Shown here one piece after another: positions 57,969-64,000 of a stretch of 64,000 nucleotides of DNA. The stretch comes from Chitinophagaceae bacterium (lineage in GTDB: Bacteria; Bacteroidota; Bacteroidia; Chitinophagales; Chitinophagaceae), in assembly GCA_022841365.1 (NCBI GenBank), contig JALHRP010000009.1, positions 35,598-99,597 of the forward strand, written 5' to 3'. Within the stretch, counting starts at the first letter, position 1. Each line of letters starts with the position of its first letter. The notes beneath the pieces are model-generated. The model did not search any database. It was not told the origin of the DNA and saw only the letters and a program-made list of their open reading frames with translations. The translations under genes and the position numbers were made by a program.

Positions 57969-58105
57969 TTGACCTGCACGGACATTTCTCGAACCATTTT
58001 ATACCAGATTTGACAAGACTTGCGAATCTTTTAACCGCATGAAGATTCAGCAGGTCTTTTTTATTTATTGATTAAGAGGCATGTAAAGCCTGTAAAATTC
58101 AACAA

Positions 58106-59197
58106 ATGAAGCCCGATAAAAATTACCTTGAATTTATCCAGTCTCTAAAGCTGGAGATTATTAACAGCCGCTACCAGGCCGCCAGGCTGGCAAACAGGGA
58201 GCAGTTGCTCTTGTATTATAAAGCAGGCAAAATGCTTTCCGAAAAGGTTAAAGCCCAAAAATGGGGTAATAAGGTACTTGAGCAGATAGCCGTGGATTTA
58301 CAAAGTAACCTGCCAGGTCTCAAAGGTTTTTCCTTTACAAACCTGAAGAAAATGAGGCAATTTTATCAGGCTTACCCGAATTTGAAAATAAGACCGTCAG
58401 CGACGGTCCAAATTGGGGAGGCTTGTTTATCAACCCACGGAAACGCACTTAAGGTAATTGGGCCGTTGCCAACGACCCAATTAGAGTCATTTTACAGCAT
58501 CAGTTTCACCCACCATATACTGTTGTTAAATCGCTGTAAAGGGGCTGAGGAGAGGTTCTTTTACCTTGAAAATGCTGCAATGCAGTATTGGTCGGTTACT
58601 GTTATGGAGCACCAGATTGATTCGGACTTGTTTAAAAAGCAGGGAAAATTGCCGAACAATTTCCAGACTACATTGGCGGAGCCACTGAAACCCTCTGCAC
58701 TTAATGTATTTAAAGACGAGTACCTGCTTGATTTTATTGCCGGTCATGAACTGGATGATGAAAGGCATATTGAGCAGCAAGTGGTGTTAAATATCCGCAA
58801 CTTTATACTGCAAATGGGCAAGGGTTTTTGCTTTATTGGCAACCAATACCGGTTGGAAGTGGACGGGGATGAATTTTTTATTGATCTGTTATTTTTTAAC
58901 CGCCTTTTGCAATGCTTGGTAGCTTTTGAACTAAAGAAAGGAAAATTTAAACCTGCAGATGCGGGACAACTTAATTTTTACCTGAATGTGCTGGACAAAA
59001 AAGTAAAGTTGCCACTGGAAAACTCAAGTATTGGAATTGTACTATGTAAAGAGAAAAATAACACGGTGGTTGAATTTGCCATTAAAAGCTTTGATAAAGC
59101 TATGGGTGTGGCTACTTATAAAACCTCTAAACAAACTCCAGTGCAAATGAAAGGGATATTACCTGATACGGATGAGTTGGGGAAGTTGTTGGAATAA
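58106..59197 (+). CDS. YhcG/DUF1016-type PDDEXK nuclease family protein
   Basis: N-terminal winged-helix-like DUF1016_N; C-terminal FCFIGNQYRLEVDGDEFFIDLLFFNRLLQCLVAFELKKGKFKPADAGQLNFYLNVLD (D...ExK core). Confidence 0.92.
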   Translation: MKPDKNYLEFIQSLKLEIINSRYQAARLANREQLLLYYKAGKMLSEKVKAQKWGNKVLEQIAVDLQSNLPGLKGFSFTNLKKMRQFYQAYPNLKIRPSATVQIGEACLSTHGNALKVIGPLPTTQLESFYSISFTHHILLLNRCKGAEERFFYLENAAMQYWSVTVMEHQIDSDLFKKQGKLPNNFQTTLAEPLKPSALNVFKDEYLLDFIAGHELDDERHIEQQVVLNIRNFILQMGKGFCFIGNQYRLEVDGDEFFIDLLFFNRLLQCLVAFELKKGKFKPADAGQLNFYLNVLDKKVKLPLENSSIGIVLCKEKNNTVVEFAIKSFDKAMGVATYKTSKQTPVQMKGILPDTDELGKLLE

Positions 59198-59299
59198 TTT
59201 TTTGATACCAGTTTAAGTATTTCATAGCATCTTCGATGCATCGCAATCCTTCATCTGTTGGTTAGAATGGAGCAAATAACTTACTTTAAAATATTGCTA

Positions 59300-62200
59300 T
59301 TAGGAACCAATAACTGTAAGCGTAATATTTGCTTTCCCTTTAAGGTAAGAATCCACTACTCCCAAAAGGCTCAACTGTTCCTTTGTTGGATTGCTACCAG
59401 ATAATCCAGGTTGAACAATGAAAAGCTCAAACTCCACCGGATAACCCTTTCTTGCTACTTCTTTAAAAAAACTGATTTTTTCTTTTGAGCCAACTTCTAT
59501 TCTGGAACAGGATTTGCCTTTTCGTTTTTTAGTTTCCCTTCTTAATAAATGTCCGAAAAATTCTTTAGCGTCTTTAAATTTCCAATTAGCCGATTTTATA
59601 GCCTGACCACATACTTCATATAAATCGTCAACCCGCTGGCTAACCTTTCCGGATTTTGCAAACTTTAAATGGTATAGCTGAATATTGATAATCTCCTCAT
59701 GCTGCTTTATTGTAATTATATCTGCTATCTCACCACTATAGTCATCATCGTATATTATATCATAGTCAGCTTCTTTTAAATCACTTATTACTTTGTATTG
59801 AATAGAATCAGTTATTTTTGGTTCAATGCCCTGCGCTTCTTTGCTTAAATCTATGTCTGACCAGTCCTGTTGAATTATATTTTCTTTAGGATAACTTGGA
59901 ATAACATGTTTTAATTCTACATAGTCATTACCAGTTAAAGAAGAGCCATCAACAAACCACCAGGTTATCGGATTTTGATATAAGAAATCCTCCAACACAT
60001 ATTGCTTCTTTCCAATTCTTACAAAGTATTTTTCATTAACTCCTGCAATTCTTTCAATCTTAAAATCATCATACCTGCCATTATTAAAAAGAACCTGCTT
60101 AAACTTTATATTTATTTCCGGCGTTACTAACTCAAAAAGTAGTTCCCCGTTTTCTGAAGGTTCTATCAATTGTAACTCTGCATTGAAGAATTCAGTCTCT
60201 GCCCCATTAATATCAAAAACGATTCTAACTTCAGGCTCTGCCAAAACTTCTTCGCCCCAATCCACCGCAAAAGGTAGAATTATTGGTCTTAGAGATACAG
60301 AGTTGGGAATTAATGTTTCTTTTAAAATAGTATTGGGATCAATATCATCTCTTATAAGTTTAGCACCCACAGAATGGCACCATTCAATAAGCTCCTGAAT
60401 ATCTCCTGTACGTCTTGACCAGATGCGTCCTTTGTAAGAACAACCAATAGATGTCTTTTCCCCTTTTTCATATCCGGAGCCAAATACAAAAGCTTTTTCA
60501 GCACTTTGTTTATCCGCCAATTCTAATGCCTTTTCGATATCGTATCCTGTCCGCATACTGAAAGTCATATTTCTACCCAAAAACTCTTTTAGACCCACAT
60601 TCTGCAAGCGAACTCTTTCGATGCCATGAAAGGCTTTAAATATATTTATCTTATTAATTATCTCTGCCTGCTCTCCAATTATAGCTTTTGCAAGTTCAGG
60701 ATATAACCCTGCATTATCACTCGCATTAATGAACAGTAAATTATTCTTTGTATCCCAGTGAATCACATAAAGATTCCAGATGATGTCGTAAATTTCTTTT
60801 GAATATCCCCAATCAATTTTATTTTTCTTTCCTGTAATTATTATTAAGGTTTTGTTTTCTCTATTTATGTCAGAAAATAAATAATCCAATTCATCAACTC
60901 CCTGAATCCCTTCTTCGAAATTAGACGGGAACCAGTCATTAGTATGGTTCTTATAGACAACCGTGCTAAGTGCCGGTGACAAACTTTGAAATGGAATTTT
61001 ACTTTCGTCCAATCCCACAAAACCTTTAAGGAAGTCAGCAAAATCAATCTCCCTTTTTATCCTTGTTGTACTAACTCTCGGTAACAATGAATTCCAGTCA
61101 GCACCGAGTGCATAAAATTCTTCCAGTTCTGCCTTGACATCAGCATCTTTTAGATTTACAATAATGCTTGCATCTCCTAAGTTTTCATCAAATTTTGTTC
61201 TTGTAAACCTGCCTGCCAACTGGATAGTTATGGGTAAACTTTTTCGGATGTTATGAAATGCTGCTATTTTTAAATTAGGTAAATCAAACCCTTCGCCGAG
61301 CATGTCAACGCAAACAATAATCTTTGCTTGCTTACTCAGAATTTTTCCCTTTGCTTCTTCCCTCTGCACTTTAGTCAAACCTGTATGAATTACAACAGGA
61401 TTAAATTCAGGATATTTTTCATAAATTTTGAAAACCGCATTTGCTTTAGCTTGTGTATTACATCTTGCCATCAAGATATGATCATAACTCACTAAGTCCT
61501 TTCTTAGTCTTTCTATAGCAGCCTGTGCTATTACTTCATCTGCTTTGGCATTATCCCACTCATTAACTTGGATTAATTCAATCTTTTTAAAGTACCCATC
61601 CTCCTGAGCTTTTTTTAAGGAATAATTGAAAATAAATTTCCCATCTAAGTTCTGTCCGTCATTGCGGAAAGGAGTTGCTGTAAATTGAATTACCTTTTCT
61701 TTCTTACAAAGGTTTCTAAAATGAAGCCAGGTAGGTGCTTTTATATGATGTGCTTCATCAATAAAAATATTGGAAACACACTGGCTTAAAGCTGCTTGCA
61801 ATTCAGCAGTTCCTGCACTTATCAAGTCCATTGTTGTAACAATAACATTACAATTTTCGGCAAAAGATAGTAGCTCTTCTTTTGTTTTGAAATTTTCGTA
61901 AAGAATTCCGACTATTGGTTTCTTGGCAGTTGACGAAACTATACCAAACTCTGGTTTTTGGAGATGGCCAAGTGAAATAAATTTTTGGGAAAGTTGCTCC
62001 CTCAAAGGGTCTGAAGGAACAATTACTAATAGTTTTTGGCACTGTTGTGCTATTAACAAAGAAAGCATAGTTTCTGTTTTACCTGTACCAGTAGGCATAA
62101 CAACGGTGGCCATATCATCATCTACTCTCCAATGTGAAAGCACACTAAATATTCCAGCTATCTGAGGTTTGCGTAAGCCAAGAATATCATTCGTTATATC

Positions 62201-62551
62201 TTCTTCTTTAAAAGAAAAGGTATTCTTCCAGCTATTGCGAATTTCCTCTGAATCAAAAGGTTCTTGAAAACCAGGGCATTTTAGCCAAGTGGGAATTACC
62301 GAAGCATCAAAGATATTTTCTGGTGTCGGCTTTTTGTCAATCTGTAAAACTTTAGAAATACCTATAGGATAGGCTTTGTTTTTTTGTACTATGCAGATTA
62401 CGTCGTTATTCTCATTCTTAATTAACAAATGAAAATTTCCAACTTCGATTGAAGAGGACTTAAATTCTCTGACATCAAAAATCTTTTGCTTAATTAAATT
62501 TTTTCCGAATCTATCAATACGGATTAAATCAGGTAGTAAAATTCGCTTCAT
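59300..62551 (-). CDS. SF2 DEAD/DEAH-box (type III Res-like) helicase, possible C-terminal nuclease-like region
   Basis: VVMPTGTGKTETMLSLL (Walker A), IFIDEAHHI (DEAH), FTATPFRND, VCVDMLGEGFDLPNLKIAAFH, ITIQLAGRFTRT (motif VI); C-terminal EIADIITIKQHEEIINIQLYHLKFAKSGKVSQRVDDLYEVCGQA. Confidence 0.88.
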   Translation of the reverse strand: MKRILLPDLIRIDRFGKNLIKQKIFDVREFKSSSIEVGNFHLLIKNENNDVICIVQKNKAYPIGISKVLQIDKKPTPENIFDASVIPTWLKCPGFQEPFDSEEIRNSWKNTFSFKEEDITNDILGLRKPQIAGIFSVLSHWRVDDDMATVVMPTGTGKTETMLSLLIAQQCQKLLVIVPSDPLREQLSQKFISLGHLQKPEFGIVSSTAKKPIVGILYENFKTKEELLSFAENCNVIVTTMDLISAGTAELQAALSQCVSNIFIDEAHHIKAPTWLHFRNLCKKEKVIQFTATPFRNDGQNLDGKFIFNYSLKKAQEDGYFKKIELIQVNEWDNAKADEVIAQAAIERLRKDLVSYDHILMARCNTQAKANAVFKIYEKYPEFNPVVIHTGLTKVQREEAKGKILSKQAKIIVCVDMLGEGFDLPNLKIAAFHNIRKSLPITIQLAGRFTRTKFDENLGDASIIVNLKDADVKAELEEFYALGADWNSLLPRVSTTRIKREIDFADFLKGFVGLDESKIPFQSLSPALSTVVYKNHTNDWFPSNFEEGIQGVDELDYLFSDINRENKTLIIITGKKNKIDWGYSKEIYDIIWNLYVIHWDTKNNLLFINASDNAGLYPELAKAIIGEQAEIINKINIFKAFHGIERVRLQNVGLKEFLGRNMTFSMRTGYDIEKALELADKQSAEKAFVFGSGYEKGEKTSIGCSYKGRIWSRRTGDIQELIEWCHSVGAKLIRDDIDPNTILKETLIPNSVSLRPIILPFAVDWGEEVLAEPEVRIVFDINGAETEFFNAELQLIEPSENGELLFELVTPEINIKFKQVLFNNGRYDDFKIERIAGVNEKYFVRIGKKQYVLEDFLYQNPITWWFVDGSSLTGNDYVELKHVIPSYPKENIIQQDWSDIDLSKEAQGIEPKITDSIQYKVISDLKEADYDIIYDDDYSGEIADIITIKQHEEIINIQLYHLKFAKSGKVSQRVDDLYEVCGQAIKSANWKFKDAKEFFGHLLRRETKKRKGKSCSRIEVGSKEKISFFKEVARKGYPVEFELFIVQPGLSGSNPTKEQLSLLGVVDSYLKGKANITLTVIGS

Positions 62552-62646
62552 TCATTCATCTTAGGTAAAATATATTTTTAACCTCCTAAAAATAGAATTT
62601 AGAAAGCCTTTTATTATATACTAATTTAGAAATAAGAATACAGAAA

Positions 62647-62889
62647 TTAATGCTTTGTATCCTTACTAGAACTTGGGTCATTGCCAGGAGCCACGGTATC
62701 ACTATCTCTTATTTTTCCATCCAGTCCATGAATCCTTACTTCACCACCTCCTGAATTTGCAGCATAGCCTTTTGCTATTTTTTCTGCCTCCTTTTGTGTT
62801 TCACCTGAGCCGCTTGATTTAGCCCCGCCTTCTTTTTGGATATTCCATTTTCCCGATTCCTTGTCTTTTGATACATGATAATTTGCCAT
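62647..62889 (-). CDS. DUF2188 domain protein
   Basis: YHVSKDKESGKWNIQKEGGAKSSGSGETQKEAEKIAKGYAANSGGGEVRIHGLDGKIRDSDT. Confidence 0.85.
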   Translation of the reverse strand: MANYHVSKDKESGKWNIQKEGGAKSSGSGETQKEAEKIAKGYAANSGGGEVRIHGLDGKIRDSDTVAPGNDPSSSKDTKH

Positions 62890-62900
62890 AGTATTAAAAT

Positions 62901-63527
62901 TTAAAAATTTATGTTAGAAATTGATGTTATTATTATTCCCTGGATTTGAAATTCGCTTTCCAGTATTATTGGTTTATGCTTAGGATTAGATGATCTTGGA
63001 ATTAAAGCCACTACATTTCCTTTATGCTGATACTCCTTTAATGTAGCATTATCATCAATTAATGCAACAACCTTTTGCCCGTTCTCCGCTACGTTTTGTT
63101 GTCTTACCAGGACTAAATCTCCGGGTTGAATGCCGGCCTCGTTCATTGAATCACCAACAGCCCGGAGGAGAAAATACTTATATCCTGTTTTAACCAGCGA
63201 AGTTGATACTGGAATGTAGGCTTCCACATTTTCTTCTGCCAGCAAAGCACCACCACAGGATATGCTGCCAACCAGCGGAATAGCCACGGTTCTGGCGGAC
63301 TCATTGGTAGACAGGTCTTTTACCATTTTGTAGCTGCCGTCTGTTTTCCTTTCTAAAAATCCATTTACTTCAAGTTCTGCCATCAGCAGCATCGCTGACC
63401 TGGGGGACTTATATTCCATTTCCTCCATTAACTCCCTTACAGAAGGCATCAGGCTGTATTTCATTATCCAGTTGCGGATGTGCTTTAAAGCCTCTTTTGC
63501 CTTAGCTGATAATCGCTCTTCGCTCAT
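62901..63527 (-). CDS. LexA/UmuD-like S24 autoproteolytic transcriptional repressor
   Basis: N-terminal wHTH (KYSLMPSVRELMEEMEYKSPRSAMLLMAELEVNGFL); cleavage-like SCGGALLAEENVEAYIPV; Ser RAVGDSMNEAGIQPGDLVLV; Lys KVVALIDDNATLKEY. Confidence 0.9.
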   Translation of the reverse strand: MSEERLSAKAKEALKHIRNWIMKYSLMPSVRELMEEMEYKSPRSAMLLMAELEVNGFLERKTDGSYKMVKDLSTNESARTVAIPLVGSISCGGALLAEENVEAYIPVSTSLVKTGYKYFLLRAVGDSMNEAGIQPGDLVLVRQQNVAENGQKVVALIDDNATLKEYQHKGNVVALIPRSSNPKHKPIILESEFQIQGIIITSISNINF

Positions 63528-63534
63528 AATACAA

Positions 63535-63552
63535 AGTGTATAATAGTGTATA
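63535..63552. promoter_or_regulatory. Direct-repeat candidate operator upstream of the LexA-like gene
   Basis: AGTGTATA-at-AGTGTATA, repeat period 10 bp, 8 bp upstream of the minus-strand start codon. Confidence 0.45.
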
Positions 63553-63642
63553 AAATTAGAACAAAAAAATGAAATAATTATAAATTGAGAGCTGACTGTT
63601 AAGAAATTGTGGATTTGGTGGAAAAATCAAAATATTGAAGAA

Positions 63643-64000
63643 TCAGGCTTTCTCGGCCTTCAATCGCACCACTTCGTCTCCAATCAACCGCTTCACCTCC
63701 ATCTTGACCTGGTAAAAATTATCCATCACCTGTTGCTGGGTTACGTTGGATACAATGGGGATGTTTTTGTAAGCGGCTACTTCAGCATTTAGCTTATCGG
63801 CATCATTGATAATCTCTGCATGAAACATTTTAAGTTTTATTTTTTCGTGGGGATCATCGGCAACCATACCTACAAATTCACCGGAGGAAAGAGCAGCAAT
63901 TTTACTGGCAGGTATAGCACTGTCCAATTGCTTGGAATGGCTTATTGATGTATCGGTACGGTTTACGGAAACACTCTGCCGGTTCTGCATAATTTTTCCG
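63643..64000 (-). CDS. C-terminus of a TraG/MobC-like conjugative coupling protein, truncated by right edge
   Basis: Frame open to the edge: GKIMQNRQSVSVNRTDTSISHSKQLDSAIPASKIAALSSGEFVGMVADDPHEKIKLKMFHAEIINDADKLNAEVAAYKNIPIV; resembles the C-terminus of Bacteroidota VirD4/TraG-type proteins. Confidence 0.7.
   Translation of the reverse strand, partial: GKIMQNRQSVSVNRTDTSISHSKQLDSAIPASKIAALSSGEFVGMVADDPHEKIKLKMFHAEIINDADKLNAEVAAYKNIPIVSNVTQQQVMDNFYQVKMEVKRLIGDEVVRLKAEKA

Follow-up and report, generated by a model that had tools for sequence, protein, structure and literature searches.

A probable DNA-damage-inducible operon on a Bacteroidota mobilisable element, with a predicted helicase-nuclease in a swappable cargo slot

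The stretch analysed here, called the window, comprises 64,000 nucleotides of a Chitinophagaceae bacterium genome (contig JALHRP010000009.1, positions 35,598 to 99,597). Near its right end, three minus-strand genes encode a LexA-type S24 repressor, a small DUF2188 protein and a large superfamily 2 (SF2) helicase, preceded by the end of a mobilisation gene and faced from the left by a convergent YhcG gene (Table 1). The original prediction for this region had named these four gene families, and we found its open reading frames (ORFs) and strands to be right, its family names borne out by profile matches (ResIII/Helicase_C, DUF2188, Peptidase_S24/LexA_DNA_bind and YhcG_C), and its 95 bp between the helicase and DUF2188 genes correct; the gap between DUF2188 and LexA is 11 bp. 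The partial frame upstream of the repressor, read earlier as the C-terminus of a coupling protein, is that of a Bacteroidota MobC (NF041326), and is incomplete because the right end of the window is also the end of the contig (contig C9, 99,597 bases). The mobC frame runs on into contig C84 (L008), with a 102-bp overlap containing 2 mismatches, and a relaxase gene follows it there; a full-length MobC relative (L078:1860-3815) matches T4SS-DNA_transf. The proposal that these genes lie at the edge of an element is borne out on the left side, where similarity to a related element in another genome (G693, locus L078) starts at about position 57982, just upstream of YhcG. Neither a tRNA nor an Rfam family was found in the 64-kb window, which therefore holds no tRNA attachment site.

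Table 1. Positions, within the 64,000 nucleotides of the window, of the genes, protein domains and candidate operators discussed
Feature	Position	Strand	Basis
YhcG/DUF1016 PDDEXK protein, convergent with helicase	58106..59197	+	YhcG_C 3.4e-53; PADLOC candidate PDC-S02
SF2 helicase-nuclease, 1083 aa, predicted defence cargo	59300..62551	-	ResIII 4.7e-21, Helicase_C 5.1e-9
Predicted C-terminal PD-(D/E)XK-like nuclease, residues 905-1046	59414..59839	-	invariant residues, predicted topology
SF2 helicase core, residues 125-466; Walker A GTGKT 155-159, DEAH 265-268	61154..62179	-	Pfam ResIII/Helicase_C
DUF2188 protein, 80 aa, PADLOC candidate PDC-S16, part of LexA cassette	62647..62889	-	DUF2188 1.1e-18
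LexA-type S24 repressor, 208 aa	62901..63527	-	cleavage site C91-G92, catalytic S127 + K164
Candidate LexA operator 2, palindrome ATACA-CTT-TGTAT (ATACA-N3-TGTAT)	63529..63541	.	promoter-overlapping, ends 1 bp before ATG
Candidate LexA operator 1, TTATACA-CTA-TTATACA, tandem half-sites 10 bp apart	63537..63553	-	pattern search
MobC C-terminus (type IV secretion system coupling protein), element backbone	63643..64000	-	NF041326 2.7e-46

Judged by its sequence, the repressor is a canonical-type, self-cleavage-competent LexA. It carries the Peptidase_S24 domain (PF00717, 6.7e-27) and the LexA_DNA_bind winged helix-turn-helix (PF01726, 9.1e-8), scores 160 bits against the TIGR00498 lexA cut-off of 111, and has the cleavage dipeptide, serine and lysine that are kept in all 13 LexA proteins aligned. 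With canonical LexA (TIGR00498) it thus has in common both domains, these residues and, in the form of candidate sites, an operator at its own promoter; unlike canonical LexA, it is carried by a mobile element and coupled to defence cargo. Only two proteins of the host genome (4.56 Mb, a draft in 326 contigs with a contamination estimate of 4%) pass the cut-off, namely the one in the window and another encoded by a second element, in contig C19 (L006), and no plasmid match to LexA was found at E 1e-25. Such proteins are rare in Bacteroidota. At E<=1e-50 they were found in 5 of 398 genomes sampled from the order, and at E<=1e-40 in 8 of 388 from the class and in 2 of 396 from the phylum, the samples overlapping. 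The Bacteroidetes have been described as lacking canonical LexA and as using a different S24 family that binds CTAA-N5-TTAG or GGA-N5-TCC sites (PMC8565304). That family likewise supplies an S24 repressor of the damage response in the same phylum, but the window protein differs from it by its LexA DNA-binding domain, which is of the canonical kind, and by its TATACA/TGTATA sites; by inspection, the 115 bp preceding lexA hold neither of the two described motifs.

Altogether, about 1,100 sampled genomes and one viral contig yielded 14 loci with a canonical-type LexA like that of the window: the window itself, three loci that adjoin recA, and ten others. The three recA-linked loci (L118, L119 and L122) belong to one Bacteroidota genus (Pfam RecA 1e-135 or better), and place a canonical-type LexA beside recA in a phylum described as lacking canonical LexA. 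In all ten of the others, defence genes lie directly downstream of LexA: Thoeris or ThsB in three, cyclic-oligonucleotide-based anti-phage signalling systems (CBASS) in five, and Avs4 and a KAP NTPase in one each. The six closest loci, all from within the order, are those of the window, C19 (in the window's own genome), G693, G767, G474 (L080) and G001. G693 encodes Thoeris, with ThsA (1.4e-211) and several ThsB, and the Thoeris genes of C19 are 83-92% identical to these. The C19 locus (L006:8322-16706) is a second element in the same genome, in which MobC, LexA and DUF2188 are found with the Thoeris cluster; its ThsA is split, which we considered as a frameshift and rejected, the interruption being an assembly gap of Ns. 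Cyclases of CBASS stand behind LexA in G001, G474 and G767 (7e-172, 5e-158 and 2e-172), and the neighbours scanned in G001 comprise an E2, an effector with four transmembrane segments and a second cyclase, with an Avs4 gene further downstream. Among the farther loci, G952 (L120) has Avs4 (1.7e-160) in a 4-bp overlap with the lexA stop, G1143 a type III CBASS with cyclase, HORMA, TRIP13 and NucC, G1086 a ThsB-type TIR protein (8.9e-119), and the viral contig L139 a CBASS effector and cyclase (1.7e-180); the weakest of the ten cases is G1170, whose KAP NTPase, resembling PifA/QatA, is cut by the contig end. The LexA proteins of the window, C19 and G693 are 86-91% identical and form one clade (support 100/99) with different cargo behind them, which points to a recent exchange of cargo.

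The DUF2188 gene forms part of the LexA cassette. Five of the six closest loci have it in the interval from LexA to the cargo, and the proteins of four others are 86-94% identical to that of the window even where LexA identity falls to 61-68%; non-synonymous changes are far fewer than synonymous ones, as expected under purifying selection. In G474 the gap between LexA and CBASS (L080:4387-4680) lacks DUF2188, and the insert there is flanked by an inverted repeat (AACGTGTTGTGCTATTA...TAATAGCACAACACGTT). Genes for DUF2188 occur in 16 of 148 genomes of the family. The co-occurrence of helicase and DUF2188 for which the original prediction had proposed to look was seen near one other copy of the window's helicase (L046), and DUF2188 was found besides in loci of CBASS (L126), Pycsar (L127, before effector, cyclase and E2) and, by inspection, type I restriction-modification (L130); further copies have no visible link to defence. 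In L126:6055-12609 the order is a helix-turn-helix gene with an M78 peptidase (a CapH/CapP-like pair), a small ORF, DUF2188, a C92/LRAT-type peptidase, Cap15, a DncV-like cyclase and an E2, so that here DUF2188 follows a different damage-type regulator than LexA. In L128, L129, L135 and L136 it comes after a small HEPN-like protein of 151-157 aa, L135 and L136 having the same chromosomal setting. DUF2188 had no match in the PDB, and kinship with YegP was considered and rejected, the two being without profile similarity. Our guess is that the protein modulates the controlled operon or is an accessory to it.

Two candidate operators lie between mobC and lexA. Exact matches to the tandem pattern TTATACA-N3-TTATACA are confined in the host genome to its two lexA promoters; in a set of 141 loci, they occur before lexA in the window, C19, G693 and G001 and nowhere else. 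The palindrome ATACA-N3-TGTAT has a single match in the window, where 0.14 would be expected, and recurs at the lexA promoters of C19, G693, the Avs4-linked G952 and the recA-linked G870 (L119). As no terminator-like site was found from lexA to the end of DUF2188, nor before the helicase, co-transcription of lexA, DUF2188 and the helicase gene is plausible from the sequence. In the Thoeris and CBASS loci the cargo begins 24-37 bp after DUF2188.

The cargo of the window itself is a protein whose helicase core is XPB/RadD-like by profile and fold. At its C-terminus, E905, Q918, D936, D937, E941, D944, H961, K963 and Q983 are invariant in an alignment of 14 homologs, and the domain is modelled with an alpha-beta3-alpha-beta topology at a predicted local distance difference test score (pLDDT) of 85, the full-length model being moderate (pLDDT 71, predicted template modelling score 0.42). 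This topology and the invariant E941, D944 and K963 fit a PD-(D/E)XK enzyme, with H961-x-K963 in place of E-x-K, and the C-terminus is accordingly predicted to be a nuclease of that type in which histidine replaces the usual glutamate; Pfam and PDB sequence profiles gave nothing meaningful for this domain. The family is patchy, occurring in 7 of 396 genomes of the phylum, but it is widespread on plasmids, where 54 records matched at E<=1e-60, 52 of them with 80% cover or more; Klebsiella and Acinetobacter plasmids are included. Its neighbours elsewhere include GajA (3.7e-236) and GajB (1.6e-169) in L050, RT_UG5 (8e-114) in L047, an AriA-like ATPase in L046, and PDC-S06 (L060) and PDC-S25 (L058); inspection of viral contigs also showed restriction genes of type I or III beside it. 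In the other helicase loci examined no LexA adjoins it. The association with LexA for which the original prediction had proposed to look among helicase homologs was thus not seen, while the link to mobile elements and defence proved strong, and no housekeeping helicase matched that of the window.

We considered and rejected two identities for this protein. PADLOC-2023 families matched its core only (best PbeA 6e-12, Cas3 2e-8). Hna, a DinG-like SF2 helicase-nuclease of 845 aa from S. meliloti (PMC13381803), resembles it in combining an SF2 helicase and a C-terminal PD-(D/E)XK domain in one mobile, patchily distributed protein, but BLAST against the 845-aa Hna ORF of pSymA (L059) gave E 2.1 over 64 residues, and there is no similarity beyond Walker A. 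Hachiman (PMC12278908), composed of the HamA nuclease and the HamB helicase, follows the same helicase-nuclease logic; it uses two genes, however, the window helicase matched no HamA/HamB PADLOC model, and a HamA-like fold was a weak match only. Our literature searches, whose coverage did not extend to subscription papers and preprints, found no prior description of such a helicase. On plasmids of Mesorhizobium (L055:1733-11135) and Sulfitobacter (L056:1538-10937) the helicase gene stands in an operon-like row behind two others, which encode a PD-(D/E)XK protein and a helicase of the UvrD type; in Mesorhizobium the row lies near DUF1819 and WYL genes. This is possibly a multi-gene version.

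That a repressor controls defence cargo beside mobilisation genes, as had been proposed, is well supported as a general idea. The three genes do not hold together as one fixed system, because the helicase has no LexA beside it in the other loci examined and because LexA-DUF2188 elsewhere precedes Thoeris, CBASS and other defence genes, near-identical cassettes carrying different cargo. Since close LexA-DUF2188 relatives precede other anti-phage systems, the pair can rather be read as a portable DNA-damage switch, and we consider it probable that the window holds a defence operon which is portable, inducible by DNA damage and carried by a mobilisable element of Bacteroidota, with the predicted helicase-nuclease in a swappable cargo slot. 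It can be hypothesized that LexA would repress its own promoter through the TATACA/TGTATA sites, that DNA damage or phage replication would give rise to filaments of RecA on single-stranded DNA, and that these would induce self-cleavage of LexA at C91-G92, which would turn on the lexA-DUF2188-cargo operon. The slot for the cargo would be interchangeable, and its occupant in the window, an SF2 helicase fused to a putative PD-(D/E)XK-type nuclease, would most likely translocate on and degrade invading DNA.

Several points weigh against this interpretation. The helicase is paired with such a LexA in one locus only, the LexA loci of one family or genus are not independent, and the counts of defence neighbours are raw counts. 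The nuclease domain has H-x-K where E-x-K is usual, and its fold matches are weak, the best PDB neighbours being FokI (E 0.17), a nicking endonuclease and Shedu. A separate promoter for the helicase is possible, as the 95-bp gap exceeds the 24-37 bp before Thoeris and CBASS cargo. The sequences themselves show the order of the genes, their domains, the intact catalytic residues of LexA and helicase, the conserved nuclease-like residues and fold, the restriction of operator-like sites to lexA promoters, the exchange of cargo between near-identical cassettes and the defence-island setting of both LexA and the helicase. Repression, RecA-triggered release, co-transcription, nuclease activity and an anti-phage effect are what we infer, the regulatory and catalytic steps by analogy with what is known of these families.

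DNA-damage-responsive controllers of adjacent immune operons have been described in CapK+CapS, CapH+CapP and CapW/BrxR (PMC13373217, PMC9122601); in 57 cases a small gene of the YegP-like kind comes after the CapK+CapS pair. A 2026 paper on CapK/CapS names three regulator families for immune operons. The LexA cassette resembles them in being made up of small regulator genes which stand at the promoter end of immune operons that can replace one another, CBASS and Thoeris among them; LexA has this place before Thoeris, CBASS, Avs4 and other cargo. Both are predicted to derepress upon DNA damage, for LexA from its chemistry. The Cap controllers are built as a WYL protein, as a helix-turn-helix protein with an M78 peptidase, or as an HTH-STAS-GHKL kinase with a STAS-wHTH protein, whereas the regulator of the window is S24/LexA only and has none of the WYL, M78 peptidase, kinase and STAS domains. 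The position of DUF2188 recalls that of the YegP-like gene behind CapK+CapS, but the sequences are not alike. Literature searches found no description of a LexA-controlled CBASS, Thoeris or other defence operon, most subscription journals and preprints lying outside their coverage. We lean, with some reserve, towards regarding LexA-type repressors as a further class of DNA-damage controllers for interchangeable immune operons, DUF2188 as a conserved accessory, and the helicase-nuclease as an uncatalogued single-gene defence system. Suicidal immune operons have to stay silent in bacteria until they are needed. If LexA were a fourth regulator family, there would be a direct connection from the classical SOS switch to CBASS, Thoeris and Avs, and drugs or phages that cause damage would turn immunity on through RecA. 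Anything behind LexA-DUF2188 would then be a defence candidate, a rule that nominates the helicase-nuclease family, and DUF2188, for which the papers found describe no role, would gain a testable context.

The same genes could be explained in other ways. LexA-DUF2188 might regulate the mobile element itself, in the manner of SOS-controlled transfer, with the helicase as an unregulated passenger. In the window, C19 and G693, LexA does have MobC and relaxase genes immediately upstream, and control of mobile elements by S24 or CI-like repressors is known, SetR of SXT being such a repressor. TnSmu1 may be compared (PMC10233336). The window, C19 and G693 are, however, the only LexA loci with MobC upstream: in G767, G474, G001 and the distant loci no MobC match was found in the fetched stretch, and the defence cargo is kept. 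The operator-like sites are moreover oriented away from the mob genes, and Thoeris and CBASS cargo starts closely behind DUF2188. We regard this alternative as unlikely, and as a shade less likely the proposal that the helicase serves DNA repair or replication forks in a mini-SOS regulon and not defence. RadD and XPB are the nearest helicase cores by profile and fold, and a repair gene under a LexA-type regulator would fit; on the other side stand the patchy distribution, the plasmid and defence-island setting, the added nuclease-like domain, and the finding that the same slot holds defence genes in every other non-recA locus of such a LexA.

It is most improbable that YhcG and the helicase form a single two-gene system of convergent nuclease plus helicase. 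The genes adjoin, and YhcG is itself a PADLOC candidate, but a YhcG/DUF1016 gene occupies the corresponding place next to the Thoeris genes of G693 (71% identical) and of C19 (33% identical, with a tyrosine integrase following), other helicase copies have by inspection no YhcG alongside, and the helicase already contains a nuclease-like domain. In each of the three loci linked to MobC, YhcG is the constant gene at this end of the element irrespective of the cargo carried, and it therefore probably belongs to the backbone of the element and lies outside the operon that we favour. The 50 bp after the YhcG gene (59202-59251) are 80% identical to L052:11871-11920 in contig C40, and perhaps represent a shared repeat or a terminator.

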